From NCBI RefSeq assembly GCF_910592395.1, contig NC_088323.1, positions 7,936,001-8,000,000 on the forward strand: a stretch of 64,000 nucleotides of DNA, read 5' to 3'. Below, in pieces: positions 1,303-31,057 of the stretch. Both the position numbers and the translations under genes were made by a program. Below the pieces are notes generated by a model. That model was not told the DNA's origin. It searched no databases and was given only the letters and a program-made list of their open reading frames with translations. Origin of the DNA: Lineus longissimus (taxonomy: Eukaryota > Nemertea > Pilidiophora > Heteronemertea > Lineidae). Every line of letters starts with the position of its first letter. The stretch's first letter is position 1.

Positions 1303-1315
1303 AGAACTTAATCAT

Positions 1316-7905: not shown

Positions 7906-8062
7906 GGTTCTTAAGCCAGCTCTGGTAGATGCTGAGCCGATCACTCGATATTTTCACTCCGGCCGGGTGTTGCAAGTGCTTATCCTCATACTAATGGCAT
8001 TACATTTGATGTGGACGTATTTCATATGCAGAATTGCTTTCGGCTTTCTGTTCAGAAAGTCT
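7906..8062 (+). CDS. Ceramide synthase, alternative penultimate exon A
   Basis: Ceramide synthases are ER membrane enzymes that N-acylate sphingoid bases with acyl-CoA. This 157-base exon has one base completing a split codon and then 52 codons. It reads VLKPALVDAE at the start, then a hydrophobic helix ending LHLMWTYFICRI, and finishes FLFRKS. The W-T-Y-F-I block sits 36 residues into the exon, the same distance as in animal ceramide synthases, where this segment is the loop and helix at the end of the TLC domain. The acceptor is AACAG|G at 7905 and the donor is TCT|GTATGT at 8063, leaving at a codon boundary that fits the tail exon at 30953. It is the first of five versions of the same exon. 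The remaining TLC exons lie outside the window. Confidence 0.9.
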
Positions 8063-9305
8063 GTATGTATTTTTTACTATGATTGTGATATGTCTTATAC
8101 TCTGGGGTGCTATCCTCCTACTTGCTCTGTTGAATGTTGTTGCTGCCATTGTGGTCTGGTGTTGTTAGTATGCGCGGCCACAGCATGTCCTCTCCTCCTC
8201 CCCCTCCTGACACATCGGTGCTGGATGTGCACTGCGGTGCTTCATAGAGTCGGTTTCTTCAGTTGACTGCAGGCTGTGGCATTCCAATTATTTTAATTGT
8301 TGCACATAGACGGCTGTATATTAGCGATTTTGCTTTAAGATTTTTTCAACCTCCATTTTGCATGTTAGATTTTTGCTCACGTCTGGTGGGTTACTTCGTT
8401 AGTGCAGCATTTAGCATTGTCAGTATTGATCATCGGTTAAAGGACCAACTGGTAAATTTATAATGGCAGTAGTGCAGATTGGTTGGTGGCTAGTCATCTT
8501 TCACTGGTCGTAGTAGGTTTCATCACTAATTAGCATAGAAAATGGTTGGAAAATGGTCTCATTCCGAAGACGCACCTAATGCAATTGTCAATGTGTGTCT
8601 TGTATATCCCCTCGTCAAGGACACAACACCTCCAAGTCTTGTGGTAAAGCAAGGATATCCAATTAAGACAGTCAAAAACAGGAATATGCAGTGTATCAAC
8701 TCTTGTTTCCAGAACATGTCCATGAGGACTCCTATATCCCTAAAACATCTGTGTCTTACCGTAACCACTCTGTGAAGCTTTGACACGATTTTCGGGAGTG
8801 CTGAGAGATGACCTATATTAGCTTTGACACACATGGCAATATCTTGTTTTGAGTAGAGGGGAGTGCAAGGCACGCATTAGTACTTGCATGAGAGACACAT
8901 ACTCTCTAACTCCAGCACAGTGGATCCACCTGGTGTCAGAGGTGGGTTGATGGTGGAGCCACTGTCAAAGAATAGATCATGTGTGTTCTAAGTACACGAT
9001 ATGGCCTGGTGCCCATTTGATCATATGACCACGAGATGACTTATTATAATTTCTGATGTTTGTAGTGGTATTTTGACTACAGTATTTTGAAGTATTGAAT
9101 TCTTGCGTATCCCAATGTACGCAAAAAGTTATTAGATAATAGAATAAAATTGCTCGACATTTTCAGGACAATTTTCTGTTATCCTTACCATCAAATTGTT
9201 ATCATTGGTACACCTCATGATATTTTAACCGTATTCAATTGGAGTCAAATTAAAGACAAAGGCTTAATTTAGTCTGATGCATGCAATAACCGTTAAATAC
9301 TATAT

Positions 9306-9357
9306 ATACAATAAACCTGTATGGCATGAAATTACTAACAAGATGTCATCAAAAGAT
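9306..9357 (+). repeat. 52-bp direct repeat, copy 1
   Basis: The 52 bases starting ATACAATAAACCTGTATGGC are repeated exactly at 9952-10003, 646 bp downstream. The second copy lies inside the TIR element at 9783-10290, whereas this copy lies outside any recognised element. Confidence 0.85.
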
Positions 9358-9782
9358 CTCCTTGGGGTACTCTTGTAAAATGACCATACATTATGCCTGA
9401 GGTTTTTGTTCTCACTCATGCCTCAAGATCACCAAGGTCAAATGGCATAATTTGCCTGTAAGCTCTTGTACAATATGGCATGTCCTTTAAGCAATTTTCT
9501 CAGATTCTCTGCTCTAGGTCAGGTGACCTCAGGAAAACTGTGGTGGATACCGGTGGAAAAAAAGCTGTTTACCGGAAAGTGTGGTGGTGTCAAAGGCCTA
9601 TCATAAGGCTACATCTCATGAACAATGCAAGCAAGAATCATATGCTTAGGTCATGAGCTTCTAATGGGGATCATGTGATTGCCTACTTGGACCACATCCT
9701 GTTGATGATGTCACAATTGTATACTAATACTGTACAAAGGAGTAACACATGCATGTCATAGATCATCCAGTGTCATAAGTCT

Positions 9783-10290
9783 TACTTCCACTACAGATTT
9801 TAAACCCGGTGTTACTAGATCTGGAGGCTCTCCGGATATAAATAAACCTGAATATTTCTTGGTTCGTGTTCAACTACAGGCTTGCATATAAGGTTAATAA
9901 GCTCGGCGGTAGATGGCGACACCGAAATTTGCTCTCCAGTTACAGACTATAATACAATAAACCTGTATGGCATGAAATTACTAACAAGATGTCATCAAAA
10001 GATGGAGGTAAAAATATTGGGCACTATTTTCCACAATGCGCCGTGCGCACTTGTATTAAGCAATCGGCATGCCACCTATCGCCGAATCTATACAACTATT
10101 ATCTCCCGTGTTATTAGTATTCCACGACAGAAAACTCCGGTGCCGATCTGGACCTGCGTGCGAAACCCACCGATGATCGGCGGGTATAATAAACCCGGTG
10201 TTATTAGCTCCGGGCCTATTTAACCCGGAGATCCTGTAGTGGAATCAGAATAAACTCGGGCACACACCGGAGTTTTGTGTAGTGGAAGTA
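9783..10290. mobile_element. DNA-transposon MITE with 13-bp TIRs
   Basis: The ends TACTTCCACTACA (9783-9795) and TGTAGTGGAAGTA (10278-10290) are perfect reverse complements. Counting the outer TA as a target duplication gives Tc1/mariner-like ends. Subterminal AAACCCGGTGTTA motifs occur near both ends. There is no transposase, so it is non-autonomous. The superfamily is tentative. Confidence 0.7.
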
Positions 10291-11074
10291 CCACTATTAT
10301 ATCAGGTGCAGGGTTTTGATCTGCCACCTAAGACTGGGTTTATATAGGTGTCATGTTGTCACTTTGTCTTGGTATACATCTGGGTTCAGGATTGTGCGCA
10401 CTGACTTGTTACTGTCTGTGAAGTTCCTGCGGATGGTCTGTTACTGGTTTCTGCATGGAAGATAGCTTTGCATTCTCTTTGAAAACAGTGGGGGAAGTGG
10501 TGATGAAACAGTCGGGTCAGAAAGATTTCCAGTGATTTTCAAGACATTGTGCAAGTTTTCATGGGGCTATTTCATGTCATGAAAAACAAGTGTGATCACA
10601 TTGGAAACATGACATGTCACAATGGTATGGGTGTCATGGTGTAAAGTGAATCCTATGTTTAGAGCGCGTGTTGAAAATGACTCGATCTTTCTTTATATCA
10701 TGCATGACAAGTGAGGTCACACTGTCGGATGTCACACACGACAGTTTGACCTATGTAAACTCGGCCTTTCATGTCAACATTCAAACACCTTACTCATTTC
10801 ATTCATCTTCATTGCCGTACAGCCCTGTGCAAGCAGATAGTCCATGGACAAATTCATTCCTTCATTACACTGGAGTTTTTAGTCCTTGAAAGTGAGCTCA
10901 TGTCGTCCTCCTTGTCGGTCATACGTAGGTACGTTCGACGACAATTATGGCACATTTGCTCATGATCGGGACTGGATATTTCAAACTTGATGTGAGGGAT
11001 GTCTCACGACAACATGACATACCAATTAAGGGTTGACGACAGGTACACCCATTTTGGCTAGGACTTGAAATCAT

Positions 11075-11278
11075 GAAGCAATTAGAAGTCCTTCAAAATG
11101 TAGTGAATGCTCATATAAAGCCCTGGAGGCTGTTGTCTGAAAAACAAAGAACAGACTCCAGCCCTTGAAATGAGCATTCACTATGTTTTGAAAGAGTTCT
11201 AGTTGCTTTAGGATTTGGAGGTCTAACCAAAATGGCGGTACCTATGGTCAACCCTTAGACAGTTTACTCCATGACCCT
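11075..11278. mobile_element. Hairpin MITE-like repeat, copy 2
   Basis: This is the second copy of the foldback repeat at 1316-1517, with the same arms and the same tail (AAATGGCGGTACCTATGG, then CCCTTAGACAGTTTACTCCA). The match runs over about 200 bp with scattered substitutions. Confidence 0.75.
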
Positions 11279-12411
11279 TAGCATTGCGGTCTGACCTATA
11301 TATTCTGGGCTTTCAATGTCTTATAATATTGATAAAAACCAAGGGTGAGGTATCATTACCTACTTATCAACCTAATTTCATCCATCTTGGCCAGTATTCA
11401 ATGAAAAATAACCGAAATAGGATATTAGTAGCTGAGAACATCATCTATTCACTCTTGTGTAATATGCTAACTCATGTGAGCACAATGTCCCCTGGACATT
11501 TTACTATAATATCCTGTGTCCAATAGGGAATTAATCAAGATCAACTAAATTGTCAAAAAAATCAAGCACAAACTACTGAGGGGCATTTCTATCTCCTCCC
11601 TGTTGTCTGCTAACCCTCTCTCTGGCTACATGAGAAGCAGGTCTATCTCTAACTTGTTTACAAAGAGGACCGCTGGAATACAACCCGTTTGCAAGCAAGC
11701 AAGCTGTAGACTGACATTTACATGAGTGCTTTATTCTTGTGATTTTGGCATTGTGATGCATTAACCATTAAATTCCGGCAGCAAACGCGATTTTTCAGTC
11801 TACGGCCAATTGAAAATGAGCAAATTCTTGCACCATTTCACGGTTTACTCATGTGTAACCCCATACTACAACACGAAATGCAATTAACAATAGACCCTCT
11901 GCATACAAAGCATCCTTAAGGCGGACAAATGCTTCACTTAAAAAAGAAAAATGTCCTTATTATATGGATGAGAATGAACCATGAGGATGAACCATATTAT
12001 ATGAATGAGAATGAACCATTTTGGACCAATATCAGTGTCTTTTTAGAATATGCTGACTTAGGTTTCCCTAATAGGGGTTCTATTATATATTATTTGTGGT
12101 GCAAAAATTCACCACTGCTGCCACCTATGGAGAGCAGAACTACATTTCCAGCATGCCCCAAATGTAAACAAGTTCGGGAGCGGACCTGACCTTTCAGCAA
12201 CGGCTGAAGCCTGCAATGCTCCGGACCAATGCTTTCTTGCACAACCTTTCTGAGAGTAATATGATGTAATGATGGCTGCTAAAAACACATTTCCAGACTG
12301 GAATATTTTGCACTCAGAAATCAGCAGGGGTGTTGCTGTTGCAGGTGTGGCCATGCAGTTGGGTAAACTTGGACTAGAGACACATTTGCATTGTTCTCCA
12401 CAAGGCTATTT

Positions 12412-12570
12412 GTCAGGGTGGCCCACCCTACCTTGGAAGAGCCACCCCACCTTGCTCTAGAACTTTGTGGAGGGTTCCTATAGGGCCGCCCTACCTCAAA
12501 TTGCTGGCCACCCTACCTTGTGTTGCACACTGGTAAAACGTCATGAAAGTCAAGGCTATCACCCTACCTT
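12412..12570. repeat. CCACCCTACCTTG-rich patch
   Basis: About five irregular copies of a (GGC)CACCCTACCTTG motif occur in 160 bp, spaced unevenly. It is probably a decayed tandem repeat. No coding or RNA function is visible. Confidence 0.5.
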
Positions 12571-12780
12571 GAGAAAACCCTGTGGAGGACACTGATTTGA
12601 CATTAATCTTATCCCTGTCATTTTCAAAAAAGCGTAATTATCTAACTTATGTGATGCAACATGCAGCTTCAGATATTTGTCAAACCAAGTTGCTTTCAAC
12701 CAAGTTTGCCTTGATTCCTGGAACATGTTTGACGTATTATGGCGTCCATGTATGCATGTTTGGTTCCAGCGGATTAAGGC

Positions 12781-12878
12781 AAACTACAGGGTGACCCAGA
12801 ATTATTTTCCTTTGAACAATAGAATTCTATTGTGTATCCATTGTGTGAGGGAAAATAATTCTGGGCCACCCTGTAGTT
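12781..12878. mobile_element. Tc1/mariner-type palindromic MITE
   Basis: CTACAGGGTGACCCAGAATT at the left faces AATTCTGGGCCACCCTGTAG at the right. The TA dinucleotides at 12785-12786 and 12874-12875 fit TA target duplications. The element is under 100 bp and almost wholly palindromic. A 54-bp relative lies at 38484-38537. Confidence 0.8.
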
Positions 12879-14009
12879 TAATCCAACTTCTCCCTAGTCC
12901 TAACACTTCCTATGTAGGTTCGCTAAAATTCTGATCAAAGAAAGTATTGCAGTTCCTCAGTGTATCTATCATCATTCCAGGGGGCAGTCTCGTCTTGGAG
13001 TCATTCTCTGCTGCACTTTTTTTTCAACTTGGTAACAACAGTCTTCTCAGTTGTGAACAGTCCCCAATTCTCGCAGCATTTTAGTTGTGAAGCTCGTTGC
13101 TACTGTTAGGTCCTTCAGAATCCAAGAAAAAAGAAACGCCATTGTCTCTCATTCCCTCAGCTGACTGACCTACTTTTTGCCAAAAGTGGAAAAAAAATTC
13201 CGCAGATGGAAAAGTAGGTCGCAGCTTTGCCAATTATCGGTAGTTGTTAGCTTTCTTCTATGAATCTTTTTATTTGTGAAATTAGGAATTAGGTTTAAAC
13301 AGAAGTTGTTTGGCACATTTTGGATATAATCGTTGTATTAAGGCTTAAACGAAGATTTTTTTCCATTTAGAAGGTACACGCGTATTTAGTGATTTTGTTT
13401 TTTCATTGGAAATTCTTTAGGGTCCAAGATTGCCATTGTGGATTTAGTCAAAGTGTTCATAAATGTTTTTTGTGCATCATTTTGGGGCTCAGGAACACAA
13501 ACAACCAGTTTGATTTCTTTGAAGTTCGGCTTTAATTAATCCTTGCTTCGCGACCAAACAGCTTTATTCATTTCAGTAACCACGGTCACAAAAAAGTTTT
13601 ATGTAGGTACACTGACGGCGCTCATTGAATTCAAAATATAGCCTAACCTCTCCACCCCTCCCCCCTGCAAACCCCTTTGGGCTTTGCTGAGGCGATCTTA
13701 ATTTCTGTGAAAAACAATGGTGAACACGCAAAATCCCGTTGAGTGGCGAAGCTAAGATTTATAACAACCTAACTTCATTGAAATCCAACCAGTATTTTGT
13801 GCTCAAGAACCCAAATTGATGCAGATAAAACATTTACGAATGGACTATAGTAGACGTGCTTTGTTAGATAGAGCAGTGTCTGCCACCCTTCGTTGTTTAC
13901 CATTGCAAAGGCATGTTTCTAAGCAACCAGCTTTTCACCTTTAGAACTAAATTTAGACAACAGTGGACATGAAAGACGAGTTTGATCAGATTAACCAGTT
14001 TCCACATGT

Positions 14010-14400
14010 CGCCTGACTACTTCCCTGATTGCCACCTAATTTAGATCAGGGGTGCATGGAATGAATATATGTAATCAACATCTAACTACCATACATTACA
14101 TAACTACCATACGTTACATTTGACCTATATTCATGTCATGGGTACATTGAGTGGTAATTAGATATGCCATATACATGGCAAATCTAATTACCATATCTAT
14201 CATTTGACCTAATTCATATCATGGGGACATGATATGATGAGCATGCTTGAAATGAACATCTAAGTACCATACATTTCATTTGACCTATTAATGTCATGGG
14301 TATATAAAATGACAACGAATTACTTCATCATACATTGATTTGACCTACATTTCAACTGGTCACATGCATACCTTGAATATGGGTGAGCAATCAGAAATAG
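14010..14400. repeat. Degenerate tandem repeat of the TGACCT family
   Basis: Repeated blocks read like CATTTGACCTATTCATGTCA, then TGGGTACAT and ACCATACAT. The same words occur in the tandem monomers at 48.7-49.1 kb (ATATCATGGGTACATCTAAC). This appears to be an old decayed fragment of that element inside the intron. Confidence 0.55.
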
Positions 14401-14805
14401 TCGCTTCCTGATTTTAAGCACATGCATAGATTTTTCTTCTCTGGCTGGCAATGATCTCCTTTGAAGGTCAGAAGGGTTAACTCTATAGAAGGCACATATT
14501 TGGTATTTTGTCCTGAAATCTCAACCAAGTTTGTAGACTCCTGTTACAGCTTGGTAATGCAACCAACTTTCCAGGTGTGATTAGGCCAAGGCAGAGACAG
14601 TTTCTAGGCCTACCATTAGCAATGTCTGTGGGTAGAGGTGATCTCAATGGCCACTTGCCCTTTGATCGAACATATCATTCGTGAGTATTTGCAAAAAGGA
14701 TCTGATCGAATTGAAATTTTCAATTATTTTATTGTAAAATTTACTTGAAGTTTATTTATTTATTTTAAAAACCAATAATCGCTCTTATTTTGTGTGCCAT
14801 TGCAG

Positions 14806-14969
14806 GGTATTGAATTCCTCATTCTTTGAGATTGCCGATGTTATCCCTCCACCCCTACCAGCCGCGTTCACAACCATGAATGCCTTGTTGGCCACTTTGC
14901 AAGCCCTACACATCTTCTGGACTTATCTGATTTTCCGTGTGATTTTCACGCGCGTCATTCTCAATGCAC
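14806..14969 (+). CDS. Ceramide synthase, alternative penultimate exon B
   Basis: The exon follows GCCATTGCAG|G and begins VLNSSFFEIAD. It has a proline-rich loop (VIPPPLPAAF) and a helix ending LQALHIFWTYLIFRV, and finishes near VILNA. The entry phase and spacing match the other versions (W at residue 38). The nearest usable donor is C|GTATCA at 14970, which is one base out of phase with the tail exon. Splicing it to 30953 would add only RAKG and a stop. Reading on into the intron would stop at 15011-15013 after LCEK. So this version either makes a tail-less isoform, uses a donor I cannot see, or is decaying. The end coordinate assumes the GTATCA donor. Confidence 0.78.
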
Positions 14970-17671
14970 GTATCAGTTTTCCAGTCAAAAACATTTATCT
15001 ATGTGAGAAATAATCCCAACACCACCATGTTTGTTATAGTTTGTTTGGAATGAAGATAAATTTAGGTTGTCAGTTGAGAACTTGGGGAATCTTGTGAAAA
15101 TGAGGGCAAAATGTGTCGCAATGTGCAGGTCTTCTTTTTGAGTATATGTCTTCAAAAGAATGCGTCATCAAACAGCTCAAATGACCGATGGTATTATAAC
15201 CAAGCTACTGGCTGCCCAGTCACCTTCCATTCCACAGTAGCAGTTCCCATCTTAAATGAACACATGGAAAAACTCTGAAACTGACTAAATTCTCATGCTG
15301 ACCGATTTTAATCCCAAATGGATCTGCAGTCTTCGTGCTGATATGATTTTTGTGTGGATCAATGCACGACGACGTGCTGCGCAGTGACGAAAAGATGATG
15401 ACGTCGCACTGTTGGCACTAGATTACCCTTTTTCTGCGTCGATAATGGATGACGTTGTGTCGTAAAAGCAGGGTGACGTAAAGTCTGAAATTGGCGTGCA
15501 CTCATCTGGCGTGAAATGTATTACGGGCCAGGAGTAGTGCATGTGTAAACTAGTTTATAACCCATTTTCCTACTACCTAAGACATGTGAAGAGCTAAAAA
15601 AAAATTCGAAATTTTTAAAAAAACGCAGAAATAGTTTACTCATGAAACAGAAGAAGTACTAACCATCTGAAGTAAAAAAGCCGATCGCTTTGTAAAGACT
15701 TTACTAGACTTTCTGTCACATTGTTGCCATCTGAATTTGGCATTTGGCATTTTGCATTTAGCAGCGCATCATGTTTTTAAAAGGAGGAAATGTGTAGTTT
15801 CTGATAGGATTTCTCAAATGCCCATTGCGACTCATTTTGCCAGCGTGGTTCACAGTTTAGTTGTGGTATTATGGGTTAAATATGTGATTGGCTCCTCACA
15901 CCCTACACATGAAAAACATTTCAAGATATTGAAATGCCATAATCTGCCAAATCTCTCAATGTGTGTACCTATCCACAAAAGAGGCGTGATTCTTAAAGAA
16001 TGGTTAATGTGCACGATTTTGAGCTGTAGTTATTTTTTGGTACATTCCAAGAGATTCCACTGGCACTCATAACATTTTGACAATCTGATTTTTAAACTGT
16101 ACATGTACATACATGTAATTAGAGAACAGAACAAAGTCACGAAAAACAGAAACAGATTCTTGTACACCTCTATTGGTTTCAGTATTAAGTATTAAGTGAT
16201 AATAAAAATGGTGGTGTTTATAATGTTACTCTGTGAGTTTGACATCAAACCTAATATCTCGTCAAATTTCCTTTTAATATTTCATCTATTTCCCTTCTGT
16301 TTAATCTAGGATGATATCTTCTTCTCATCTCCACTGGCCCCTTTCTTAATTAATATCACAATAATAATATAGTTTTTGGTTTTTATTTTCTAACATTTCA
16401 CATGTAACACTTTCCTGTCGTGTGGCTATTTATTTTTTTTTCTTTAGAATTTTTTTCAGTATTTGCCCCTGTGTTGATATTTTTTGTCTCTTTTGGCCTG
16501 TTTTATTTGCAAATTTCTGGTTGATTCGCACGAGTTGACTGTCATCATTTCCTTCCAGCAGCACTGCTGGTGCTTGAAGGGCTGAATCTGAGCACAGGCA
16601 CCTCCTGGGCAGGTGATGAAGCGATAAATTATAAACTCATTACAAAAACACAAAAAAACATATCATACATATTAAGAAGTTCAGCAGTTTGCTAGAAACT
16701 GACCTTGACCTTCTTTTCAAGGCCACAAAGGTCAAACATAAATATTTCACTTTTGTTTTTCCTAAAGTCTAAATATAATTTCCTAAATTCTTATTGGGCA
16801 TTGACACTTGCTGAGCACTTAGTCCATTTGACCTACTTTTCAGATATGTAGGCCAAGATACATGCAGTATACCCTATTGTTGCATGTAATTGCAATATCC
16901 CTTGCTGGAGGTTTGCACACTGACCTCTGGCCATTTTGTAATTTCAGCCATATTTATATTTTTTTAAAGCCATCAAATTTCAGTACTTTGTTGGGTTATG
17001 GGGTATGTGTTGTCAGTGGTCATTAAAACATCTTCTCGTAATATCACTTTTTTCAGTCAGAAGAAGATGCATTTAGTTGCAAAAAGGCTTATGATCATTT
17101 ATCGGTGTATTTAACAAATATTTAGGGTATGGCAATTTCTTAGAAAAAAAGGCTGGACCGCTGTAGTCATGAGAGTGGGCTAGACAGGCTGTTTTACTGA
17201 AATAGATAGGCTATTTTACTGAAATGATGCAATACATTCCCTAGGCCACCAATGCAACAAACTAAAATTGTTAACAAAGTTTAACTTCTTGATCAGTTTG
17301 CCACAAAATTTTTTATCCTGTTCATGATCTTTATCTTATTGCCCTGAGTCCCCCGTTGGTAGGTCAGAGTGGGTTGGTTTTGCCTTCTGGATCCAATGGG
17401 CTGAGCAAATATATCGCGCACTCCCTCTTGGTGTTTTCTACTGCCCAGAATATAGTATGAAATGTAAACCAAACATAATAATGATTCCTTTCATCGAATT
17501 TCAGAATGTTGCCCAGCTTATTTCAAATGTACTAACCCCATGTTTCATTATCATTGTGACGCAGACATTGGGGAGCTCAGCGAGTTGCTGTGGGCTCCCC
17601 CAATCAACCAGCTGAATGCCGTCATTCATTCACCACTCTCATTCAGACATGTCATTTCTTTTCTCTCGAAG
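14970..17671 (+). other. Intron between alternative exons B and C
   Basis: No further exon is visible. A patch at 15360-15480 contains three TGACGT motifs and shares GCAGGGTGACGT with 49546-49916. A decayed TGACCTTGACC..AAGGCCACAAAGGTCAAA repeat lies at about 16695-16740. The hairpin at 17567-17604 lies close to the next acceptor. Confidence 0.6.
17567..17604 (+). promoter_or_regulatory. Stem-loop just upstream of exon C
   Basis: ATTGGGGAGC (17567-17576) pairs with GCTCCCCCAAT (17594-17604) with one bulged C, around a 17-base loop. It lies about 70 bases before the acceptor of exon C, where it could mask or present the branch-point region. The stem is seen directly. Its role in splice choice is inference. 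Confidence 0.45.
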
Positions 17672-17837
17672 GGTACTTCATCCCTGCTTGGCCTCTGATT
17701 CCGGCATGCACGAGGTTATCCATGAGAGTTGGCCAGCCTTGTTTGTCAGTCGTTGTATGATTGTAGTAGTGTTCCTTCTCAGCATTATCTGGACATATTT
17801 CATTTCGATGAATATTTATCGACGTGTGGTCGACAAA
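17672..17837 (+). CDS. Ceramide synthase, alternative penultimate exon C
   Basis: This 166-base exon has one base plus 55 codons. The pyrimidine tract TTTCTTTTCTCTCGAAG precedes it. It begins VLHPCLASDSG, has a loop rich in charged and polar residues (MHEVIHESW), then a helix ending LLSIIWTYFISMN, and leaves with YRRVVDK|GTATGT at a codon boundary. The W lies at residue 40, so this loop is the longest of the five. Frame, entry phase and exit phase all match exon A. Confidence 0.9.
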
Positions 17838-20800
17838 GTATGTACTAGCTTCAGGACCAAGCGGGTCCACATGCTGTCCCGTAGTTTTCTTAGCTGTGCT
17901 TCTAATCGTATAATCCCTTTGTATCGGTGGCAAGGATATAAACCCTAGACGCTCCTCCAACTCAAGTGGCAAGGGAAACGAAGACTAGTGTCATGCAGCA
18001 TGGTGGCAAAGACATTTATTAACACGTTTTTCACCCAAGAAAACCTCAATTAAGGAATTGATACCTCACTGGAGGTATTGGTTGTCTCTCGTAGCCGAGG
18101 TTTTGGCCAATATTTTAGCTCCACCCGAGCAGTTTGGGTGAGACAATCAATGCCGACAGTGAGGTATCAATTTCTGCTCTAAAATATCTCAAATTAAATA
18201 TCGAATAATGTGGTTTTAAATGCTTTTGAAGTGCTTCCACATTTTGTACCAACCCAAGCGGGTATGGTTGTCTCACCCAAACCTATGTGGTGAAAAGCAG
18301 GCTATATACATTATCCATTATGAAAATGAAATATTCTCATTCGGGTATTTTAGAATAACCAGCCTCAAGTTGTGTGGGCTTGCCGGTGCTGTAATAGTGT
18401 AATGTCAGTTATACCTTAATTTTCTGTTGTATATTTTGTAAGTGTGACAAAGCAATGGCCTACCAGTAAGAAGGTTTGCCAGTTTATTCGACATTGCGCT
18501 GTGAAGTGAATTAGTCGCTTCATAGGTGTGGTGATTAGTGCACATTCAACCCAACGTCGTTGGGCTCCTATAAACTGGCTAACAACGCTGTGAATAATCT
18601 CTAGATGCAGCAGTTGGTTTGTATGTTTAGAATTGTTTAAATTTTTCTTTAAAAAACTGAGACATTGAAGGGTTAACAAGCCATTAAGACCAACTGGAAT
18701 ATGGGTTTTGTGTTGGCCAGTCTGATCAGTTGGGGGGGGGGGGTGAAATAAGGAGGGCCCAATTGAAAATGTCACTGTCAGTATCTGCTAAATTGACTTT
18801 CAATGGTTCATAGGTATTTTGAATTGGAAATCAGTATCATGGTGTCATAGAGATGCCTCCCATCACGAATCGTATTGTATCCCATTTGACAAAAAGCTAA
18901 CCAATTTTAATTCTTGGGACAATGTGGGAAATAGAAATTTCTTTGCCTCTATGCTGCATACTAGTTTATTGGAATGCCAGTCACAGTTCTTAAATTTCAA
19001 TTCACTCAATCCAGTTGTTTGGTAGCTGCTGCTCGACATCACTGCAATTTTATCTAGTGGAAATTAACATGTTTATTTGCCATACGCTTTTGCCATATGC
19101 CCTTTTTTACCTGTTTTCAAATGTGTCCGTGCTTACCATTGTATCGATACAATACATAGCCTGCGAGGCTAAAAATTACTCCCGCCTATTATGGGATATC
19201 AGCAGAATCTGTAGTAGACACTATGGTGGTGGAGGATTTGCTACGTCATCACTGAGCAGCAAATTTGTGACGGTGATTCTCATCAAAACGCATCATACCG
19301 TATACGCAACGCGTGATAGTGATTCTCGTCAAAAAGCACTGAAGGTGTTAATCAACCCCCGAGACAAAATGCGCTTGATTTTGAAAAAAAATTATCTACT
19401 TGATGTCGAATAAAAAGTACCAAAATATACTTACATGAAAATGATACAACTAATTCAGAATGACGAGAAAGAATGCTGGTAAACTCAATAGCCTGAGAAC
19501 AAACCTGGATGGCACGCACCTTTTAATACTTGCGTGATTGTCATTTCAGGCTTGGCCAGACCGTGCCACTCATGATCAGTGCCAAAATAACGGCACAAGA
19601 AAAAATATGTGTCTGGCCGGTCGCCACCTGGGTCGAGTTGTCAGGCATTACTGGATTTTCCTGGGGGCCAGAAGTAATTTGCTCCCAGAAAGGCACTATT
19701 TCCACGTTGTGTGGCGCAATGGTCAAACCTTGAACGAGAATGGAAGAGTCCTGTATTACAATATGAGCTACTACTGTAAGAAAATAGCAATGAATTCTAG
19801 GAAAATTTGATAGTAATGGGTTAATTTTGGCTAATCAAAACAGACAGCCGTGTTCTGAAACTACATTCATCAAATCCACCATTAAGACCACCAAAAACAC
19901 CAGATAGCCTAACGAAGTGAAATACATTCAGCACTTAATAAAAATGCTTTCATTCAGTAAGTGTCTGGTAATGTTGTTGCAAAGCTTTCACAGATCGTGA
20001 ATATGCTTCCTTTATGGCCTTGTGGTAAATAATAGCGGAAATATAAGCAGGAAAAAAAAATGCACATTACTTGTTCTTCTACACAGAGTTTTGTCACACA
20101 TCTTTTCATCGGGAAGTTCTACCAGTTAAACATCTGGTCTAATCGTTTGTAAAATCAAGTCTATTTTAAATGTCAAAAAGCAAATAAAACACCCAGGTTG
20201 TGAATTTTGAAAATCGGGCGTGTTTGTCTCCAGTGTTCGCACGCGTGATGAAAAACTCGGGCTTTGGGAACATATCTTTGAATAGATATTAAAGTTGAAA
20301 TAGAAAGATGATGGCAAAAGTAACATTATTTTTTATGGTGGACTGAGATTTGATGGAATATAAAGCAAGAATGTTTTGACATAACCCGAGGAACAGACTC
20401 TGAACAGTTGAAATGATATGGTGCATTATCTCATCCAGTGCTGCATATTCAATTTGAAGGGCAGATGGTATTGGAGCAAATCTCTCAAGAGTCAAGCCTA
20501 TTCTAACAAGTATTGATTTTCGAAGAATTTTTAAGACATTTCCTAATGACAAAATTGTTACGACTAGCAAAACCACAGAGCAGCATGCATGCCACCTTGG
20601 CCATGGAATTGAGTAACGGGTGATCAGGGGTGCCACCTATACATTGGTTTTATGGTGAATTATGTAGTTCCATAACAAACTTTCCTTAAACCGTAACAAA
20701 TTTCTCCCCCGACGCTGTCCAGATTTCGTTGTGTATGAGTATGCATTTGTCGTCAAGAGAGAGGACTTCGTATACTCCACCTGTATGAACGTTTGTGGAG

Positions 20801-22098
20801 GAGGTTGCCATTCAAGCAATGTCTTGTCTTCCATTCTAACCGCAAACGGATGTGTGCGTGCCGAGTGCCTGGGATGCCCCATCTCTTCAAATCCGCTTCA
20901 CACAGGCCCAATCTTCCCTGTGACTACTTCAGCCAACTTCTTTGTTGCCTGTTTGCCATCGACACAGACCTGTTCTTGATGCTCTCAATGGCCTGCAAAC
21001 GAGTGATTTAAAAATGTAGCCACCTGCAACTTATCATGCATGCAACCAAAATCGCCGATTTGTTGTGGTTGTCGCAGATACGTGCAAGAAGAAGCATCGC
21101 TCGCAATTGACCTGCAATCAATATCAAATTCGGCTAGTACTGTAGAAGAGAGATCTTTTTGTTGCTCATGTCAGCAATTATAATTGACGGTTGCTCGCGA
21201 TTTAAGTGGCTCATTTGCGTGGCCATTGTTTTGTAACCTCTGAGATTCTGTGCCTCGCTATGAAATCTTGACTCGCTGGGTTGGATAGTCAAATACATGT
21301 CATAGATTCATCGTGTCATTCACGTCATTGTCACATTGTGTTAGATAACTTCTGACCTTGACCTAGTTTTCAAAGTCACAAAGTTAGTTCCATCATGTTG
21401 ATGAACATCAATACTGTTGACCTCTCAAGGTGATGCTATATTGACCTTTTATATCATAAGATTGTCCAAGAACAAATAGGTATCATTCAGAAATTCTCCA
21501 ATGATAGGTGGTGTTTATATAGCACTGGCGACCGGTGAACACAATGGCACTGTCATTTCATCGTAATGCTCATGCCTTTCATTTGCCTGTCTCCTTTGGG
21601 GCTTTGCTGTTGAGCATAGTGCAGAGGAGTGTTGTATCTATGTGGCCATCATGGCTTGTCTGGTATGACTCACTCCCATTGCTTCAGGGTGTTGATAAAT
21701 AGCGTTGATTTTGATGTGTTAGATTTAAGCTTTCTCTTACATGCAATAAGGAGTTGTTTCTAAAACAGTTTCTCGCAATGAATACAAGTAGATGGGATTT
21801 TCTGTTGTAAAATTCCCTGGAAAAAAAGACGTGTTATTTCTGAAAGGGGGTTGTCCCTATAGAAAAAATGGTATATGAAATTTGTTCAACTTGAAATCGA
21901 CTCTATCAATCAACACCCTCTAGAATGCTTTAGACTCACTGCCATCTCTCTAGGTGATACACGGGTTAGTTAAGGATGCAGGAACCTTTAGCCGGTGGAT
22001 AGCTAGAGGGCAAACTCTTCGTTGTCCTTGGTTCATATCATTGTTTCACATCCTGGATTCTACGGCCTTAAACTGTTACCCATTCCACCTTTTTGCAG
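17838..22098 (+). other. Intron between alternative exons C and D
   Basis: No additional xxWTYFI exon was found. Open frames at 19015-19413 (+) and 20289-20882 (-) have no recognised domain and no flanking support. A poly-G run lies at about 18732, and a decayed TGACCTTGACCTAG repeat at about 21355-21385. Confidence 0.55.
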
Positions 22099-22261
22099 CA
22101 TTATCAAACCAATTATGGTAACGCCGGGATTACACAACTACGTACCAGGCTGGCCTGGCTTAACTTTGATGAAAACGCAACTCATAATCCTGTTGGGCCT
22201 CCATATTGTTTGGACTTACTTCATTGGTCGCATTGCTGTCAAGTCCGTTTTGTATGACAAT
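22099..22261 (+). CDS. Ceramide synthase, alternative penultimate exon D
   Basis: This 163-base exon has one base plus 54 codons. The acceptor is CTTTTTGCAG and the donor is GACAAT|GTATGT. It begins IIKPIMVTPG, has an aromatic and proline loop (NYVPGWPG), then the helix LLGLHIVWTYFIGRI and the end SVLYDN. Unlike the other four versions its first base is C, not G, so the codon split across the junction differs. If the upstream exon ends TG, as the conserved Trp of the family suggests, this isoform would have Cys where the others have Trp. A 62-bp minisatellite starts about 180 bases after its donor. Confidence 0.9.
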
Positions 22262-25200
22262 GTATGTATCCCGGATACCAGTGTATAAACCCTGACACAA
22301 AGGAAAACCAGATTTCAATTTTTGGAATCTGTTGATTGGTCATACGAGTTGATGCCAAACTGTCAATTGAGAAATATCTGTGTGCATTTGAATTTCGCGT
22401 TTCTATTTGTGATAAATCGAAGAAAATCTATTCGAATTTATTGTAGAGTTGTCAAATTGCTAAATAAAGCATGTCAAGGAAGACAATCTCAATGAAATTA
22501 CTGTACAGTGTTGTCGAAATGCTAAATAAGGCATGTCGACGAAGACAATCTCAACGAAATTACTGTACAGTGTTGTCGAAATGCTAAATAAGGCATGTCG
22601 AGGAAGACAATCTCAACGAAATTACTGTACAGTGTTGTCGAAATGCTAAATAAAGCATGTCGAGGAAGACAATCTCAACGAAATTACTGTACAGTGTTGT
22701 CGAAATGCTAAATAAGGCATGTCGAGGAAGACAATCTCAACGAAATTACTGCACAGTGTTGTCGAAATGCTAAATAAAGCATGTCGAGGAAGACGATCTC
22801 AACGAAATTACTGTACAGTGTTGTCGAAATGCTAAATAAAGCATGTCGAGGAAGACGATCTCAACGAAATTACTGTACAGTGTTGTCGAAATGCTAAATA
22901 AGGCATGTCGAGGAAGACAATCTCAATGAAATTACTGTACAGTGTTGTCGAAATGCTATGTCAAAGTTGCAAATTCACAAACTGCAGACTGCCTTGGCCT
23001 CAGAATATTTCCCGATTGACAGTAGTCATTGATGAAAAGACTGGCAACGAATACCTGTGGTAGAGTTATGTTGGCGTAAAGGTTTTAACCTTGCAGTCAT
23101 TCTCACCAGCATCATATTCAAACTAGATGATGAGATGCCAGCCTCGCATTCTCGTCTTTGACACTGCTTCAAACTTGATCCCAATCCTTCCGATGTGTCT
23201 GCTTAAGGCTTGGGGCTTTTTAAAACCTTAATCAACCACCTTGTGGTTTGTCTGTGTGAGGGGCACTCACTCACGTGTGTGGACCTCTTCAGTGCGCATG
23301 CATCCTATCCTGTTGTCTGTGTGTGTTGGTGGTAAGCGGGGTCTTGCCCTAATGGCCTAACCCCCATCCCTTCTTACGGTCTCATTGTTGCTTGCAACTG
23401 TTGATGGGTCAATAAGTGTCAAACGAGCCATTCGAATTGCTACAACCGGCAAACTACAAAAATCATTTTTTTGCGTTGATTGCATTCGCAGGTGCCTGCA
23501 ACCAGGTTGCTGCAGCGACCTATGATCTTTATCAAACTCAGTGATTATGCATTTTACCTGCAGACAAGATATCTTTTTGTCGTAAATTGCAGCGAATATC
23601 ATCGCCAGTTGCAGCGATTTCAATCGCTTGTTTGCGCAGCACTTGTCGTGCTTCGCTTTGAATTTTGAATTGTGAAATTCTTTTGAAAATTATAATTTTT
23701 GAAAAACTTGTTGACCCCTTGACGAAAGGTGTAAATCACCAGAGTGTCTCTGATTTTTTTTTACTGTAGATCTGTGTCGCCATCCTAACCTCCATGTATG
23801 TCCTAACCACTTGTCACTGCATGCGAATCCTTTCACTCCAAGAGGATTTCCAAACGGCTGAACTCTTCATTGAATAGTTTGACAATGAAGTGATAGACTA
23901 GTCGGAGGTGTCAAAATTATGAGAGCAGCAAAAGCCTGCAGCAGGCATGATGACTGATGCCATTGCCTGAATGAACAATTGTATTTCTGTTGCAACTGTT
24001 AGTTACGATAGCCGGGCATCGCATACCCACTATAGAGTATGATTGCTCAATCAAGTAATGAAAGTTGCTTTAGGCTGTTGTTGGCTTTTGATAACCAAAG
24101 AAAATTGTGTCATCATCAAAGCTATAGATCAAAACCTACATGTAATAGTTCCAGTCCACAGAAATATCTTTGTTGTAACTCATTCAGCTGGACTGACAGG
24201 GCTAGGTCTTAGCTGCAGTTTGCTAGCCCATCAGTAATCTGATGACCATTCATTTTTCAAGATTTTCAATTGGTTGTATTATTTACCTGAAATCTACACA
24301 GACTCTTATTGTACTGGGGCTATAATTGTACCACTTTACCTTATGTTATTGCTGCTCTGCAATGACTTTGGTCTTGGAGGTCAAATCCAACTTTAGGCAT
24401 ATGTCAGCCACTTAAAAAATATATCTACCCGTCCTGGTACAGATGAGCACAGCAGGCCGTGGCTCTTCCCTTAAGAACACGACACAAAATGATCTTGAAT
24501 CGATTGATGTATGATTTTCTGAGTTGAGTTCTGGGTAAAGAACCTGTTTCAGCCAGTGAAAGTCCTTGTGTCGTAGAGCTTCACTCTGAATTGCATGAAG
24601 GAAGGGGACATGCCAGTTCTTAGAAAGCGCTTTATTCTGTACAACAGTGTCAAAGTACTTCATTCTCCGGCCTAACCTAAGTCTTTCTGTTGATACCAAT
24701 GAGTACACATACTGCCCTACACTCCACTTCAGACCAGTTGAGTACAGTACTGACAGGCGCCGACCGACAACCTTCAGGACAGATCACATTACAAGTCAGA
24801 TGCATGGAGGGGGAGAGGAGGGCTTTCTTTGCTTAAAATACATGCATGGCACAAACATGTAACATTTAGATGCATTTGCTTTCTGGACCTAAGGATGTGT
24901 GGGATTTATGGTATTGGTAATGGAGGATATGTGAATTTCCGTGATATACCAAACTTTGCATGAATTAGTGGTTTTGATCTATAGCTTTAGGAGAGGCCTT
25001 CAGATTTGTCTGTCTCTAGGTAACCTCTCATGCAGGCTATGCATTTAGTTGTAGACTCTGTGTTTATGCCCTGCTGTGCAAAGTGAAATAGCTGGTCTGT
25101 AGGTTTCAAGATTATTCAAAACGAATTATTGTGTGTGACTTGTTTCTTGATAGGAGCATGCATTCAGGTTACGATTTTCATCTATTTCTGTGTGTAAAAT

Positions 25201-25921
25201 GTGAAAGTGAAAGACAATATTTCAAAAAATGCACAGGGCCTCTTCTTGAAGATTTTAAAAATTTCAGAATTGACAATGCTGAAGTAATCCACGCTGATTC
25301 TCTTCAAACTCAGGTCTATATTGTCACAAGCTTATAAAAAATAGACCAGTTGGCACCTTCAAGGCTTAAAAACACCTGGGCAATGTTAAATGAATAGCCT
25401 TTATGTAGATAGCTACTTCCATGTTCCAGGTTACAGCTGGTGAATAAGTGCCCTTCAGGGCTTTCAATTCCACGAAGCTGGTCCGGAAAACGGACTACTC
25501 AACATTTGAAATATTTTCTGCTGAGGTGTTTCTGGATGTTGAAAGTGGTGAAATCTGAAAAAAACACCTTCATCCCAGGAATGAAATTCTCGAACACAAA
25601 GCCGAATTGTTGGCACAAACATAATGAAACCGCAATAAAATGAGTCTATAGGGCGGGCCAAGTCTGTTTCAGATTCTGGAATCGAAAGCCCTGACCTTTT
25701 AAAGTGGGCTCAATACTTTCCTTCTAAATTTGAGATAGTAATACCTCAAGAAGCGTAACAGGTTCATTTCTGAGTTACCGATAGTTCTAGAGTGGTTCCG
25801 CCTCCCAATAATATTGCCGATACGCTCCAACCCTTGCCAGAGGAGGGGTGTCCATTTCTGGAGTGTCCTCCGATATCCTAGCTTACCCTGCCTACATGCA
25901 TTCCCCCATTCATAATTCCAG
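22262..25921 (+). other. Intron between alternative exons D and E
   Basis: It holds the 62-bp minisatellite (22439-22965). An open frame of about 108 codons on the - strand at 24412-24730 has ordinary composition but no recognised domain. The rest shows no coding or transposon signal. Confidence 0.55.
22439..22965. repeat. 62-bp minisatellite
   Basis: There are eight to nine tandem copies with a strict 62-bp period (CTGTACAG at 22501, 22563, 22625, 22687, 22811, 22873 and 22935, with one variant, CTGCACAG, at 22749). The unit includes TGTCGAAATGCTAAATA and GGAAGACAATCTCAACG. The copies are highly similar, so the array is young. The absence of unique spacers rules out a CRISPR. Confidence 0.95.
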
Positions 25922-26081
25922 GGCTGTGTACAGTGCCATAATCGAGAGTCACAATACGATCGGGTCGCACCCCGCACTCATATGTTGCCGTTACTTATTG
26001 TGTCTTCTCCAAGTACTCAGTGTGTTCTGGTTTTACCTGATTCTTGTCGCCGCCAAGCGGGCGTTAAAACATGGCGGAAAG
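25922..26081 (+). CDS. Ceramide synthase, alternative penultimate exon E
   Basis: This 160-base exon has one base plus 53 codons, after CATAATTCCAG|G, ending GGAAAG|GTGATA at a codon boundary. It begins AVYSAIIESHN, has a short loop (TIGSHPALICC), then a helix ending LLQVLSVFWFYLILVAAKR and a basic end (ALKHGGK). FWFYLI is the form closest to vertebrate CERS5/6 type enzymes. W lies at residue 36, as in exon A. The acceptor has a weaker pyrimidine tract than the others. This is the copy nearest the tail exon and may be the default choice, which is inference. Confidence 0.87.
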
Positions 26082-29000
26082 GTGATATTGGCAGTCGGCA
26101 TTTTTCGGAGGAACCTGACTGGCAGCAGATACAAGCATTTCAATTTCTATCTGATCAATCTGACCTCTCATTGCTGGTATTTACCCTAGTCGGGCAGCTT
26201 CATGGTGTTGTGTAAACGCCAAGCATCTACACTGTATTGGTTGTGTCAGATTATTGTCCTCCCCCAATCTAGTTATCCTTTGGAAATGTGTCATGAAGTT
26301 GGCTTAAGCGTTGGTAGGCGAGAATGTTGCTTTAAGCGCCGCCTAGGGGGACTAATCAGAGTGCAGGTTCCTCATTGAGAATAGCGATTGGATAAATTCC
26401 TATGGACAATTATTTCTGACACAGATGCCATTTTGCACACAACTCTCGTAATTCTATTTTGAATGATTGCTGAAATGGATTTGATTTCGTCTGTAGACCC
26501 GGTGATTATTTTAGGATTTATTGTTTCTCATCAATTAATTGTCACAATTGACTTACCCACTGCTTCTCGTTAACCACGCACAGCCTATGTTCTGACACTG
26601 TTTGTGCCTAAGGGCTGGGTTGTGCGAAGGTTACCATTAGATTGCGCAAAACATACACGCATTTATAGGGATGTCATTGTCAATCGTTATAAGGACAGTA
26701 CCTTTTATGATTCTTGCAGTCAATAGCAGTCATAAAGGGGCATCTGGAACTTTAAAGGACTGCCTGGCTAATTAGCAGCATTATAAAAAACATGATCACC
26801 TTGACTCATCTTTCATACTTAACCAGTTTTCATTACTAATGGAATTACAACCCAGAAATTGGAGAAATTGAAATTTTGATGGACACAAGGATGGCACATG
26901 TTGTCATTAGTAATCCTTTATTTATGATCACATAAATCTCATTCATTGTAAACTGCTAATCTAGCATCGACTTCGCCACATTTTCCAAACAGTTCAAGTT
27001 TTGAATTTGCTTGTGGACCATTGTACTTCCTTGCAAGTTTCGTTATCACAAGTTAAAAGGAGGATATGGGGGGGGGGATGGATAAAATATTGTGGTAGTT
27101 GCAGAAGAAGCAGGCTGCTGGGCTTTGTGCGGTCAGCAGCCTGTCACGTTTATCAATAATCTATCCATCTCGGCAAGTGTTTGCTATTTGAATGTAGATG
27201 ATAATAAACAGGAAATGAGAAAGTCGGTCCATTTCTGTCATTATTCAAAATAGTATCGCGTAAAACTCTCCCACCCTGGCGCTTGATTGTGTGGCTATGC
27301 AAATGGGTAGATACCACAATGTCAGATTGATCCAGATATTCTAGTTCCATGTCAAAAAGAAACTGGTCGCATTCATGAAAATAAACTTTCTCGAGTTTAT
27401 ACCCTTTAGGTTTACAAGGGAGGACAATGTACATGCTCCGAGACCCCTCTGGATTGCATGAGACATGAAAAGTACATCAATTCCCATTCATTGTGCAGCA
27501 GGGTTTCAATTGAGGCAGTTCACTATCCTTCAAACGGCCATGGACGGGAGTCGGTGTACAAATGAAGTTGTTATGTTCTTGGTCTTTGTCTTGACACCCG
27601 CGGTCATGAAAGGTGTACACAGAGGCTGCCCACGGCTGTTTGAAAGATATTGATTGACACAGCCGGCAACAGCTGTTAGCCTGCCTGATGGGACATACCA
27701 AATAGCTCCTTCAAAGCGTTGCTGTCAGTGGCTCCATCTGTTGAGTGTAACAGCAACATTAAGTATGGTACTGGGATAAGTGTGAGTCTTGCTTGATAAA
27801 TGTAGTTGCACCAAGGTGCTGGGAGAGTGTGAGACCTGCTTTTAGCAGTTCAGCTAGGTACTGGGATAAAGTGAGTCCTTCATCAGTGAACTGGATAAAT
27901 GTAAGTCCTGATGCTTATAAAAGTGGCTGTGCCAAGGTCCAAGGATACTGTTCGTCCTGCTTTATAAAAGCAGTTAGTGTCTGCTGCAGTCCAGGTTTCT
28001 GTAAATGACCGTTATGTTTCTCATTTAAACTAAAGGTTTGACCAGTTAATTTTTTCGCAAAAAAACAGGGCTTCCGTTAGCCTTGGGGACGTCTAATGTC
28101 ACCTTACAGAATGATGAAGGAGCCTTGGCTTGGTGATTTCAAATCTCTTTCAAAACGGCAAGGGGAACCCTCCGAAAACTGTTTGCGATCTTTCAAAATC
28201 CGATGTTGTCAGGGTCTAGCGGAAGCCATGCACAAAATTCCGAAGCATATCACCTACATTCGTAATCATCGTTCAAATTGCCACCTTGTGCAGGAAATTT
28301 TGTACATTTTCATCCTGTTACTTTGTTAATTTGTACATTAACTTACTGCCTATTTTCAAATAATTGCATGAAGTTTCAAAATGAAACAAGCACCAATTGT
28401 ACTATTATGACAATCATGGCAAAATGCTTTTCAAGCAGTCAAGATCATAGAATCTTATCATTCATATCACCCCTGAAGTAATCCATCCCCTTGAATGTAT
28501 CACTCTCTTTCAACATTGTAAATGCATGATCCATTCTAAAAGTTTCTAAGGGAACTCCATGTCATCTTTAAACTCGGCAGCCGATCAAAAGTGACCAAGT
28601 ATATCGATGGTTTGCGACTTGCATAACTGTCCTAACTGTCGACCAAAGTTATTGATGCTTTGTGATCATTATCACAGTCCATATTGTGGACAGAGTAATT
28701 GATGCTTTGCATTCTTCGTAACTGTAAGCCAAGCTTCGCATGATAATAAGTTTACCCTGCCCTTGGGTGTTCCTTCCATTTTCTGTGGGGTTTCATATTT
28801 CATCAACAGTCCACTGTTGTTTAAATCGTGATCTTCTGTGTTGTTTTTCTCGAGGATGTTCTGGGCCCCTCACTGATAGTAATAATCATGCCACATCACC
28901 CTTACCTTGTTCGCAATCAAGTGAAAGGTGTCTCACTAGCTGTCATCATACCGTCTCTCGACAGATAGTTGAGTTCCTTTTCTGTCCTTATTGCGTGCAA

Positions 29001-30952
29001 CCGAACGGCCCCTGAAGAGTCCATGTTGGGCCACCCAAGATTTTTGTGACTTGATAAACATATGCCACCAATCAAGATTGATCTCTCTCTTTCTCAACAT
29101 TACTGGTATCAGTAACTATGGGTCTTAACAAAGTTCTTTGTTTGCCCTGATTGGGCTGTCCTCCAGAATGATGATTGACCAGTAGGATGACAGGAATAAA
29201 ATGAGTCAATTCAAAGCGCATTCCCATCTTGATGATCATTTTCACGCATGGGTTAGCTTTCATGAGATATGCTAAAGAAATATAACTGAACATCAATTTT
29301 CTGAATTCGATAGCATTTCTTAATGTAGGTAATGTGCTTCTGTTTGGTCTTTGTACAATACCTTTAGATGCTATGGAGGAAGGTACAAATGTACCTTATA
29401 AATGCTGTGGAGAGAGGTTGAGGTGCCTGCCCTACTCGCATGTTTGGAAGAGCTGAATACTCATCAAAAATGGAAATAGCATTGAACAAACTAAGAACTT
29501 CACCTTTTGGTGTAAATGTGTATTTCAAATGCAGTACAACCTACTAACATAGCACTGTAGAGGTCTTGTATTATCGTCCATTTTAAACCAGTTAAGTTTA
29601 GTAAGTTCTAAATTCCTTACTGTGGTAAGTACTAATTGTTTTCATATTATTGTTCCTTCCTCTTAATCTTGCACCTTGCTTGCTTCAACATCCGCATGCT
29701 TCTAGTTCCATTCTATCTTCTATCTCTTAGTGCTGTTTCTAGTGTTACTCATGTTAGTCTTTATCTTGAACTATGTTAAACTTGCCTCATATTACTGTTA
29801 ACCATTCGTTCACCTATACACACAGGCTTTCGAACTTTTTCCATGTATATTTACTGTAGATAAAAGATATGAAATTGCTGACATGCAGTATCAACCATCA
29901 CTATCTGACTTGTGGCCATGCGTCTATCCTTTGAAAATGCATAGATGTGTTTTAATTGGTTACTTTGGAAGAAGGTGACTGGTCACCTTGGCTTTCTACC
30001 TGTCTTCTGATTGGCCACTGTGGTGAATAGTACCCTGGATTGGTTACTTAGGCGAAATTAGGTTTGCAACGACTTAACACATTGCATTTCTAATGTCTGC
30101 TAATTAACTTCAATTCTTCAATATTGTGTTGTGAGATGTTGAAATTCGAATTGATGTAAAGAAGTGGAGAAAGCCTGTTGTGTTCATATAATTGTTGATT
30201 AAATAGATTGGTGAAGATTTTAAGTAACGAATGCTGAATATTTAGATTAATGTTGCTATTATAGACGATTTGATAACACAAGCTTTATAAGAAGATGACA
30301 TAGCTTACATGTTTGGCATGTAAGAATTCCTTTGCAAGCAATTTGTCGTTGCTGAACATTGCTTGCTGTGAATTTGAATGTAAACCTCACCCAACTGTTA
30401 AGAAGTTGTGTGTAGTATATATTACTGTGATATAATATTGTGATTACCTGGCAATACTGTTGGAATGAAAAGCTCTGTTTCTCACATGAATTTATATGAA
30501 AATATCTAGAAGTATACTTAACCTCTTGAATCCCGGTGACCGACCAGTTGGTCATTTTGAAATAACGTTTTTTCCCAGCGACCGACAGGTCTCAGTGATA
30601 TTTTTATTCCCTTGAGCTGGGACGCTAGTTTATTCCTTGTTTTAGTGTGGTTGATGTACAGTAGGGTCAGTAAGAGCATGCCTAGCTAGATTGTGCCTCG
30701 TTACTGACCTTTGGCGGTTGTATGCGGGCGCTATACATCGTGAAAGTCACACCCAATTTCGCAGCCACGTGACCACCCTGGGATCCCGGGATTTTCAAGT
30801 TTTGGGATTCAAGAGGTTAAGAAGAAATGCTCTGTTTGTTACATGAATTTATGAAAAATATTTATAAGTATATCATGAAGAATTACCTAATGATGTGTGT
30901 TTTTGTTTGGCCTTGAGAATGCTGACTGACCTTGACCTCACTTCCATTGCAG
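26082..30952 (+). other. Intron between exon E and the tail exon
   Basis: No sixth alternative exon was found. A decayed tandem region of GGATAAATGTAAGTCCT-like words lies at about 27740-27990. The piggyBac-type MITE at 30522-30816 lies 140 bp before the tail exon. Otherwise nothing recognisable is present. Confidence 0.6.
30522..30816. mobile_element. piggyBac-type MITE
   Basis: TIRs CCTCTTGAATCCC (30522-30534) and GGGATTCAAGAGG (30804-30816) are perfect reverse complements, and each is flanked by TTAA (30518-30521 and 30817-30820), the target site of piggyBac elements. There is no transposase. On each side lies a diverged copy of the same ~55-bp sequence (CTCTGTTTCTCACATGAATT and CTCTGTTTGTTACATGAATT). 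Confidence 0.82.
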
Positions 30953-31057
30953 GTGCAAAAGGATGAGCGTAGCGACAGTGAGTCTGCTGTCACTGAGGAG
31001 GAGACGAACGGTACCGTGCTTGATGGTAACTTGAACGTGAACAAAAAGAAGGAGTAG
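30953..31057 (+). CDS. Ceramide synthase, common C-terminal exon
   Basis: The acceptor is TTCCATTGCAG. The exon then encodes 34 residues in phase 0: VQKDERSDSESAVTEEETNG, continuing to a lysine-rich end (NVNKKKE) and TAG. The K-D-E-R-S-D-S-E-S block matches the cytosolic tail of animal ceramide synthases (DERSD or DDRSD followed by acidic serines). In mammals this tail is phosphorylated by CK2 and raises activity. The serines and threonine followed by acidic residues here (SDSE, TEEE) fit that. It accepts the codon-boundary donors of exons A, C, D and E without a frame change. Confidence 0.93.
   Translation: MQKDERSDSESAVTEEETNGTVLDGNLNVNKKKE

Follow-up and report, generated by a model that had tools for sequence, protein, structure and literature searches.

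The DNA analysed here, a window of 64,000 nucleotides from the nemertean Lineus longissimus (C16:7936001-8000000), contains the 3' half of a Hox-type ceramide synthase gene, the remaining exons of which were found in a further 30 kb read upstream. The gene consists of seven constant exons, six homologous variable exons (E0-E5) that encode the loop between transmembrane helices 6 and 7 together with the seventh helix (TM6-TM7 loop and TM7), and one shared tail exon, all on the plus strand. Coordinates are window positions, negative ones lying upstream of the window, and C16 positions are obtained by adding 7936000.

Six homologous exons in one ceramide synthase gene

A sequence-only reading of the window had described a five-way cluster of mutually exclusive exons followed by a shared tail, and these exons were all found where it had placed them, with their bounds now fixed exactly: E1 at 7906-8062 (with the motif LHLMWTYFI), E2 at 14806-14965 (LHIFWTYLI), E3 at 17672-17837 (LSIIWTYFI; the longest of the six), E4 at 22099-22261 (LHIVWTYFI), E5 at 25922-26081 (LSVFWFYLI) and the tail at 30953-31057. 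A cluster limited to these five is ruled out by E0, which is found 10.75 kb before the window begins, at -10750 to -10594 (C16:7925250-7925406), and makes the cluster six-way. The constant exons are at -23481 to -23285, -20152 to -20026, -19212 to -19106, -17467 to -17410, -15467 to -15324, -14540 to -14412 (with the Lag1p motif) and -13777 to -13671; together they code for TM1, a domain of the Hox-like type and the helices TM2-TM6, which carry the catalytic residues of the Lag1p motif. The tail exon (VQKDERSDSE...) holds a DxRSDxE motif and the stop codon, and an AATAAA at 31164-31169 (a position counted by eye) is its candidate polyadenylation signal.

The variable exons are 157-166 nucleotides (nt) long, each one more than a multiple of three, and run from phase 2 to phase 0. 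The constant part stops at the codon bases TG and the variable exon adds the third, giving Trp in five of the six and Cys as the first residue of E4. Agreement of phases and acceptors had been claimed for E1-E5 and holds, as all five begin one base into the frame, end in phase 0 and follow an AG. The accompanying statement that most donors are perfect GTATGT is correct for E1, E3 and E4 (three of the five) and fails for E5 (GTGATA) and for E2, whose donor is not GT (AAT/GCACGT). E0 has the donor GTAGAT, and five of the seven constant exons have GTAAGT.

Two Lineus proteins in the database, isoforms of a 'ceramide synthase 5-like' protein, correspond to this gene. P0002 (isoform X4) is identical to the constant part joined to E0 and the tail, and P0001 (isoform X2) to the constant part joined to E4 and the tail; each carries a single variable exon plus the shared tail, and alternative use of E0 and E4 is thereby supported. 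The numbering X2 and X4 suggests that at least four isoforms were predicted, and E1, E2, E3 and E5, whose frames are open, are probably used as well.

The identification as a ceramide synthase, proposed from the window alone, was confirmed by alignment, domain assignment and fold. The protein aligns to CerS6, and its Lag1p/TLC residues H219, H220, D247 and D250 are invariant in 63 aligned sequences. The domain PF00046 is precomputed for both P0001 and P0002, and homeodomain rows cover residues 87-135 in the model of the E4 form. This AlphaFold2 model has a mean confidence (predicted local distance difference test, pLDDT) of 89.9; the E0-form and E4-form models both match the CerS6 TM-barrel fold, and partial structure matches to homeodomains, TMEM120 and ELOVL7 rank below the CerS entries. 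The DERSDSE of the tail fits DxRSDxE, reported as the C-terminal motif of Hox-type ceramide synthases (PMC8789539). The product is, on these comparisons, a Hox-type (CerS2-6-like) ceramide synthase with predicted enzyme activity.

The 391 Mb Lineus assembly was searched with the E2 and E0 forms, and only the best candidates were scored. Among these, each constant exon and the tail had one close match genome-wide, all at the C16 locus, and no second close copy of any of them occurs in the 94 kb formed by the window and its upstream stretch. The locus is thus one gene with a shared tail exon rather than a row of genes, as had been supposed, and isoform X2 joins E4 to both the shared upstream exons and the tail. 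The remaining matches among the candidates scored were a copy of E2 on C5, one match on C14 (35% identity, expectation value ~0.009) and two weak ones on C3 (3.5 and 5.6). At C14:107011-109223, on the minus strand, exons with WRKDS..MM.HH, HD..D and FRLYWFP mark a further ceramide synthase gene, which we take to be CerS1-like. Ceramide synthase genes thus number at least two in the Lineus genome, ruling out the C16 gene as the only one, although it is the only Hox-type one found among the candidates scored. No duplicated TM7 exon was found in the C14 gene, which shows a single TM7 exon in 20 kb, reaching ~6.5 kb past that exon.

Homology of and constraint on the variable exons

Pairwise protein identity among the six exons is 19-34%, and all of them share the L, W, Y and I of TM7, in line with the large divergence around a conserved core noted earlier. 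In a leave-one-out search of the 94 kb (2524 reading frames), a profile of the other five placed each held-out exon directly after them, with expectation values from 1.4e-10 to 8.3e-7 (E1, 1.8e-7; E2, 4.3e-10; E3, 2.8e-9; E5, 3.2e-7) and the best non-member at 0.26 or worse. Similarly, a profile of 264 segments from other species, being those that could be cut between both marks from 280 non-Lineus proteins collected, ranked the same six exons top in the 94 kb at 3.6e-18 to 2.4e-4 (E1, 8e-12; E2, 5.5e-15; E5, 8.5e-14), with E3 the weakest at 2.4e-4 and the next frame at 0.46. Neither a profile of all six exons nor the one from other species found a seventh variable exon in the 94 kb. The best matches of E2 are vertebrate CerS5/6.

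In a tree of the variable segment (47 rows, 56 columns), in which 8 of the 44 inner branches are well supported, E1, E3 and E4 cluster together (97/90), E2 joins them weakly (78/89) and E3 carries the longest end branch. The tree paired none of E0-E5 with an oyster or Lingula segment type. A Lineus-specific expansion is likely on this evidence, albeit not firm.

Between the variable exons, identity is 0.44-0.65 at second codon positions and 0.17-0.40 at third positions. Third positions have thus come close to randomness, second positions have been conserved and, the same segment being alternative in oyster and brachiopod proteins (see below), the description of these exons as old duplicates is supported. 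In a simple simulation, started from E0 and E4 only with 3000 runs each, an exon evolving neutrally still had its frame and its splice dinucleotides in 0.3-1.7% of runs when 0.6-1.0 substitutions per site were applied, and in 5.6-8.0% when 0.3 were; the observed identities suggest that the higher substitution range applies.

A second line of evidence comes from the copy of E2. At least 5.6 kb around this exon (window ~9575-15222) is duplicated on C5 (~1-5370 of the stretch C5:11687501-11697500), the length being a lower bound because the C5 stretch begins inside the match. The copy on C5 is isolated and intact and has the same GC donor. The two exons differ at 1 of 160 positions, by a synonymous change, and their flanks at 221 of 4890 aligned positions; about 7 exon changes would be expected if both copies were neutral and about 3-4 if only one were constrained. 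This comparison gives moderate evidence that E2 is under constraint.

Splicing, and the corresponding segment in other lophotrochozoans

Tandem homologous exons of matching phase, lying between shared exons, are one mark of a mutually exclusive cluster, and this is what the locus contains. The reading frame of the tail is lost when the variable exons are skipped and in all 15 pairs in which two of them are joined in order. Six of the 15 pairs run into a stop 139-151 nt upstream of the last junction, four into one 7 nt upstream of it and five into one inside the tail, where skipping likewise places it. The frame accordingly penalizes double inclusion, but nonsense-mediated decay would remove only part of such transcripts. 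For the mutual exclusion proposed from the window, frame loss and the two single-inclusion models (E0 and E4) speak in favour, and it is probably strict.

The introns also contain two minisatellites, at 4856-5527 (44 nt, 15 copies) and 22448-22958 (62 nt, 8 copies), the latter beginning ~190 bases downstream of E4. Elsewhere in the window, long open frames of 1321, 322 and 137 amino acids on the minus strand at 42664-47935 resemble what we take to be a BEL/Pao-type retroelement with integrase, and a 132-amino-acid open frame at 33859-34257 resembles what is presumably the GIY-YIG end of a retroelement.

To survey other species, 282 proteins were collected, of which 277 were divided into a constant portion, the variable segment and a tail (five could not be cut, and 11 lacked the tail mark). 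Behind a shared-word filter, 305 pairs showed an identity of 85% or higher in the constant portion. Their variable segments were 32-43% identical in 12 pairs, 60-70% in five and at least 70% in 288, with none at 45-60%. The 12 divergent pairs comprise one from Lineus (P0001/P0002), two from Lingula and nine from bivalves; no such divergent segment was seen in the other 293, many of which are vertebrate. In Lingula the pairs are P0005/P0127 and P0005/P0130, P0130 being a second gene with constant parts 92% identical; P0127 (isoform X3) has an alternative TM7 segment but then closes with a short, dissimilar stretch in place of the DxRSDxE tail, which makes its pair a weaker one. Two of the bivalve pairs involve the oyster-like protein P0121. 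Two bivalve pairs are from one species each: P0006/P0012 from Saccostrea, and the oyster pair P0007/P0008, whose members bear the names Crassostrea gigas and Magallana gigas, which we take to be synonyms. To two decimals the constant parts show no difference in either pair, and the tails are 1.00 and 0.97 identical. Two segment types are common to oysters and scallops (P0010, P0011).

The divergent oyster and Lingula pairs thus indicate that the arrangement is not peculiar to Lineus, and, judged from proteins, the segment is alternative in three lophotrochozoan phyla; the difference within the oyster and Lingula pairs probably falls on an exon border. Conservation of the cluster in relatives, raised by the earlier reading as a check, is seen in proteins for the alternative segment; six copies have been seen in Lineus alone. 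No annelid isoform pair was flagged at this segment, although the annelid proteins with names belong to separate species remote from one another and are hardly a test.

Exon choice and its proposed effect on the acyl tunnel

We propose, with a probability of roughly 0.7, that the six exons form a mutually exclusive cluster that acts as a splicing-selected acyl-chain selector. The seven constant exons would supply everything up to TM6, including the Hox-like domain and the catalytic residues, one of the six homologous exons would supply the TM6-TM7 loop and TM7, and the shared exon would add the DxRSDxE tail. In human CerS6 (8QZ6, PMC11919693) the TM6-TM7 loop is reported to close the acyl tunnel at its luminal end and TM7 to form one tunnel wall, and an eleven-residue TM6-TM7 loop is reported to set chain length (Tidhar 2018, as given by papers citing it). 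The catalytic residues of CerS6 correspond to constant exons. Because the variable segment would thus cap and line the tunnel, exon choice would most likely change the acyl-CoA used and leave the catalytic centre unchanged.

Several points weigh against this proposal. Sequence does not reveal which acyl chains an enzyme prefers, and the side of the membrane is itself disputed, in that the 11-residue loop was called 'putative cytosolic' whereas the CerS6 structure, citing the same study, places the TM6-TM7 loop at the end facing the lumen of the endoplasmic reticulum (ER). Isoforms X2 and X4 are database gene predictions, and no protein with E1, E2, E3 or E5 was present among the cluster representatives listed (the best 120 of 221, each representing a cluster formed at 90%, with P0002 standing for three member sequences). 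The donors of E0 and E5 are off consensus, and since that of E2 is GC, joining E2 to the tail in frame needs a GC donor. The 50-nt rule for nonsense-mediated decay does not cover nine of the 15 two-exon combinations or the skip. Furthermore, the mutually exclusive tandem exons of Dscam are governed by a docking/selector system, of which a crude word search of the Lineus introns found no sign: 15-21 of 40 random window sets scored equally well, as did 25 of 60 in the docking test. Finally, at the position three before the TM7 Trp (Asn315 in CerS6), 275 of the 282 collected proteins have His, four Asn, one Cys and one Ser, with one lacking the motif; the lone Ser belongs to the E0 form of Lineus. 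Among the six exons this position is Ser in E0, E3 and E5 and His in E1, E2 and E4, and some of the Ser-type forms could be less active.

This Ser, found in half the exons, also favours a different role, namely that a mutually exclusive cluster tunes activity, dimerization, ER location or stability, or that poor forms regulate their dimer partners; CerS2 and CerS6 are reported to interact and to affect each other's activity (PMC8789539). On the other hand, the variable segment is the very loop reported to set chain length, and the DxRSDxE dimer motif lies in the constant tail. The Ser-type forms need not be dead, because replacing CerS6 Asn315 by Ala or Asp is reported not to abolish activity (PMC11919693), and the conserved TM7 Trp (CerS6 Trp318) is kept in all six exons. 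We regard this role as unlikely, yet as the most serious competitor of acyl-chain selection.

Still less probable is that only one or two exons (E0, E4) are used and the rest are decaying relics of duplication, a view that overlaps with acyl-chain selection if some but not all of the exons are used. It would fit the database proteins, which show only E0 and E4, the long branch and lowest score of E3, and the GC donor of E2. Yet each of the six exons has an open frame and has retained its acceptor, phase and length, which neutral exons would rarely achieve in the simulation (most rarely in the higher substitution range), and E2 has changed far less than its flanks since the C5 copy arose. A division of E1-E5 among separate tandem ceramide synthase genes, for which the wide spacing of the exons might speak, is ruled out for practical purposes by the single close match, in the 94 kb and among the genome candidates scored, of the tail and of every constant exon, and by P0001, which joins E4 to the shared upstream exons.

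Acyl-chain selection by exon choice would have a close parallel. In COQ2 (coq-2 exons 6a/6e), mutually exclusive exons are reported to switch the substrate choice of a polyprenyltransferase (PMC8659336), and both forms are reported in the genome of the annelid Alvinella (PMC12403961). There, as proposed for Lineus, homologous exons are swapped and change what a lipid-pathway enzyme uses, but COQ2 has two exons, belongs to another protein family and had its function tested genetically in C. elegans, whereas the six Lineus exons have an inferred one. Vertebrate CERS2-CERS6 share the architecture, and their acyl preference has been attributed to the same TM6-TM7 segment (8QZ6, PMC11919693); their variety comes from separate genes, that of Lineus from exons of one gene. 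Skipping of CERS2 exon 8 in breast cancer, reported to change ceramide levels (PMC7876150), is likewise alternative splicing of a ceramide synthase, but there a different exon, one with the Lag1p motif, is lost and no choice between homologous exons is made. Muscle myosin heavy chain genes also have clusters of mutually exclusive exons (PMC3912159); they and Dscam resemble the Lineus gene in having tandem homologous exons, of which they use one at a time, and differ in having no enzyme lipid-substrate tunnel. An oyster ceramide paper names ceramide synthase from one expressed sequence tag, and the words splice and exon are absent from its text. In the titles, abstract openings and opened passages of the literature searched we found no description of alternative TM7 exons in a ceramide synthase, as the earlier reading had also stated.

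A wider possibility, to which we give somewhat less than even odds, is that lophotrochozoans (nemerteans, bivalves and brachiopods) set the acyl-chain composition of sphingolipids by splicing, besides or instead of gene copies, through a replaceable tunnel cap in one gene. Lineus would have expanded to six such caps, and its Ser-type exons (E0, E3 and E5), in which a neighbour of the active site that hardly varies elsewhere is altered, would confer acyl-CoA uses not known from vertebrates. The chain-length determinant of ceramide synthases has so far been worked out from mutants and structures of a few enzymes; the Lineus locus appears to offer six natural chimeras, made by evolution and identical outside the exchanged segment, and these forms may extend the acyl preferences known so far and bear directly on the tunnel-cap model. 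If the proposal is true, similar enzyme diversity has arisen by gene duplication in vertebrates and by exon duplication in some lophotrochozoans, and the composition of the worm's membrane lipids could be switched by splicing.
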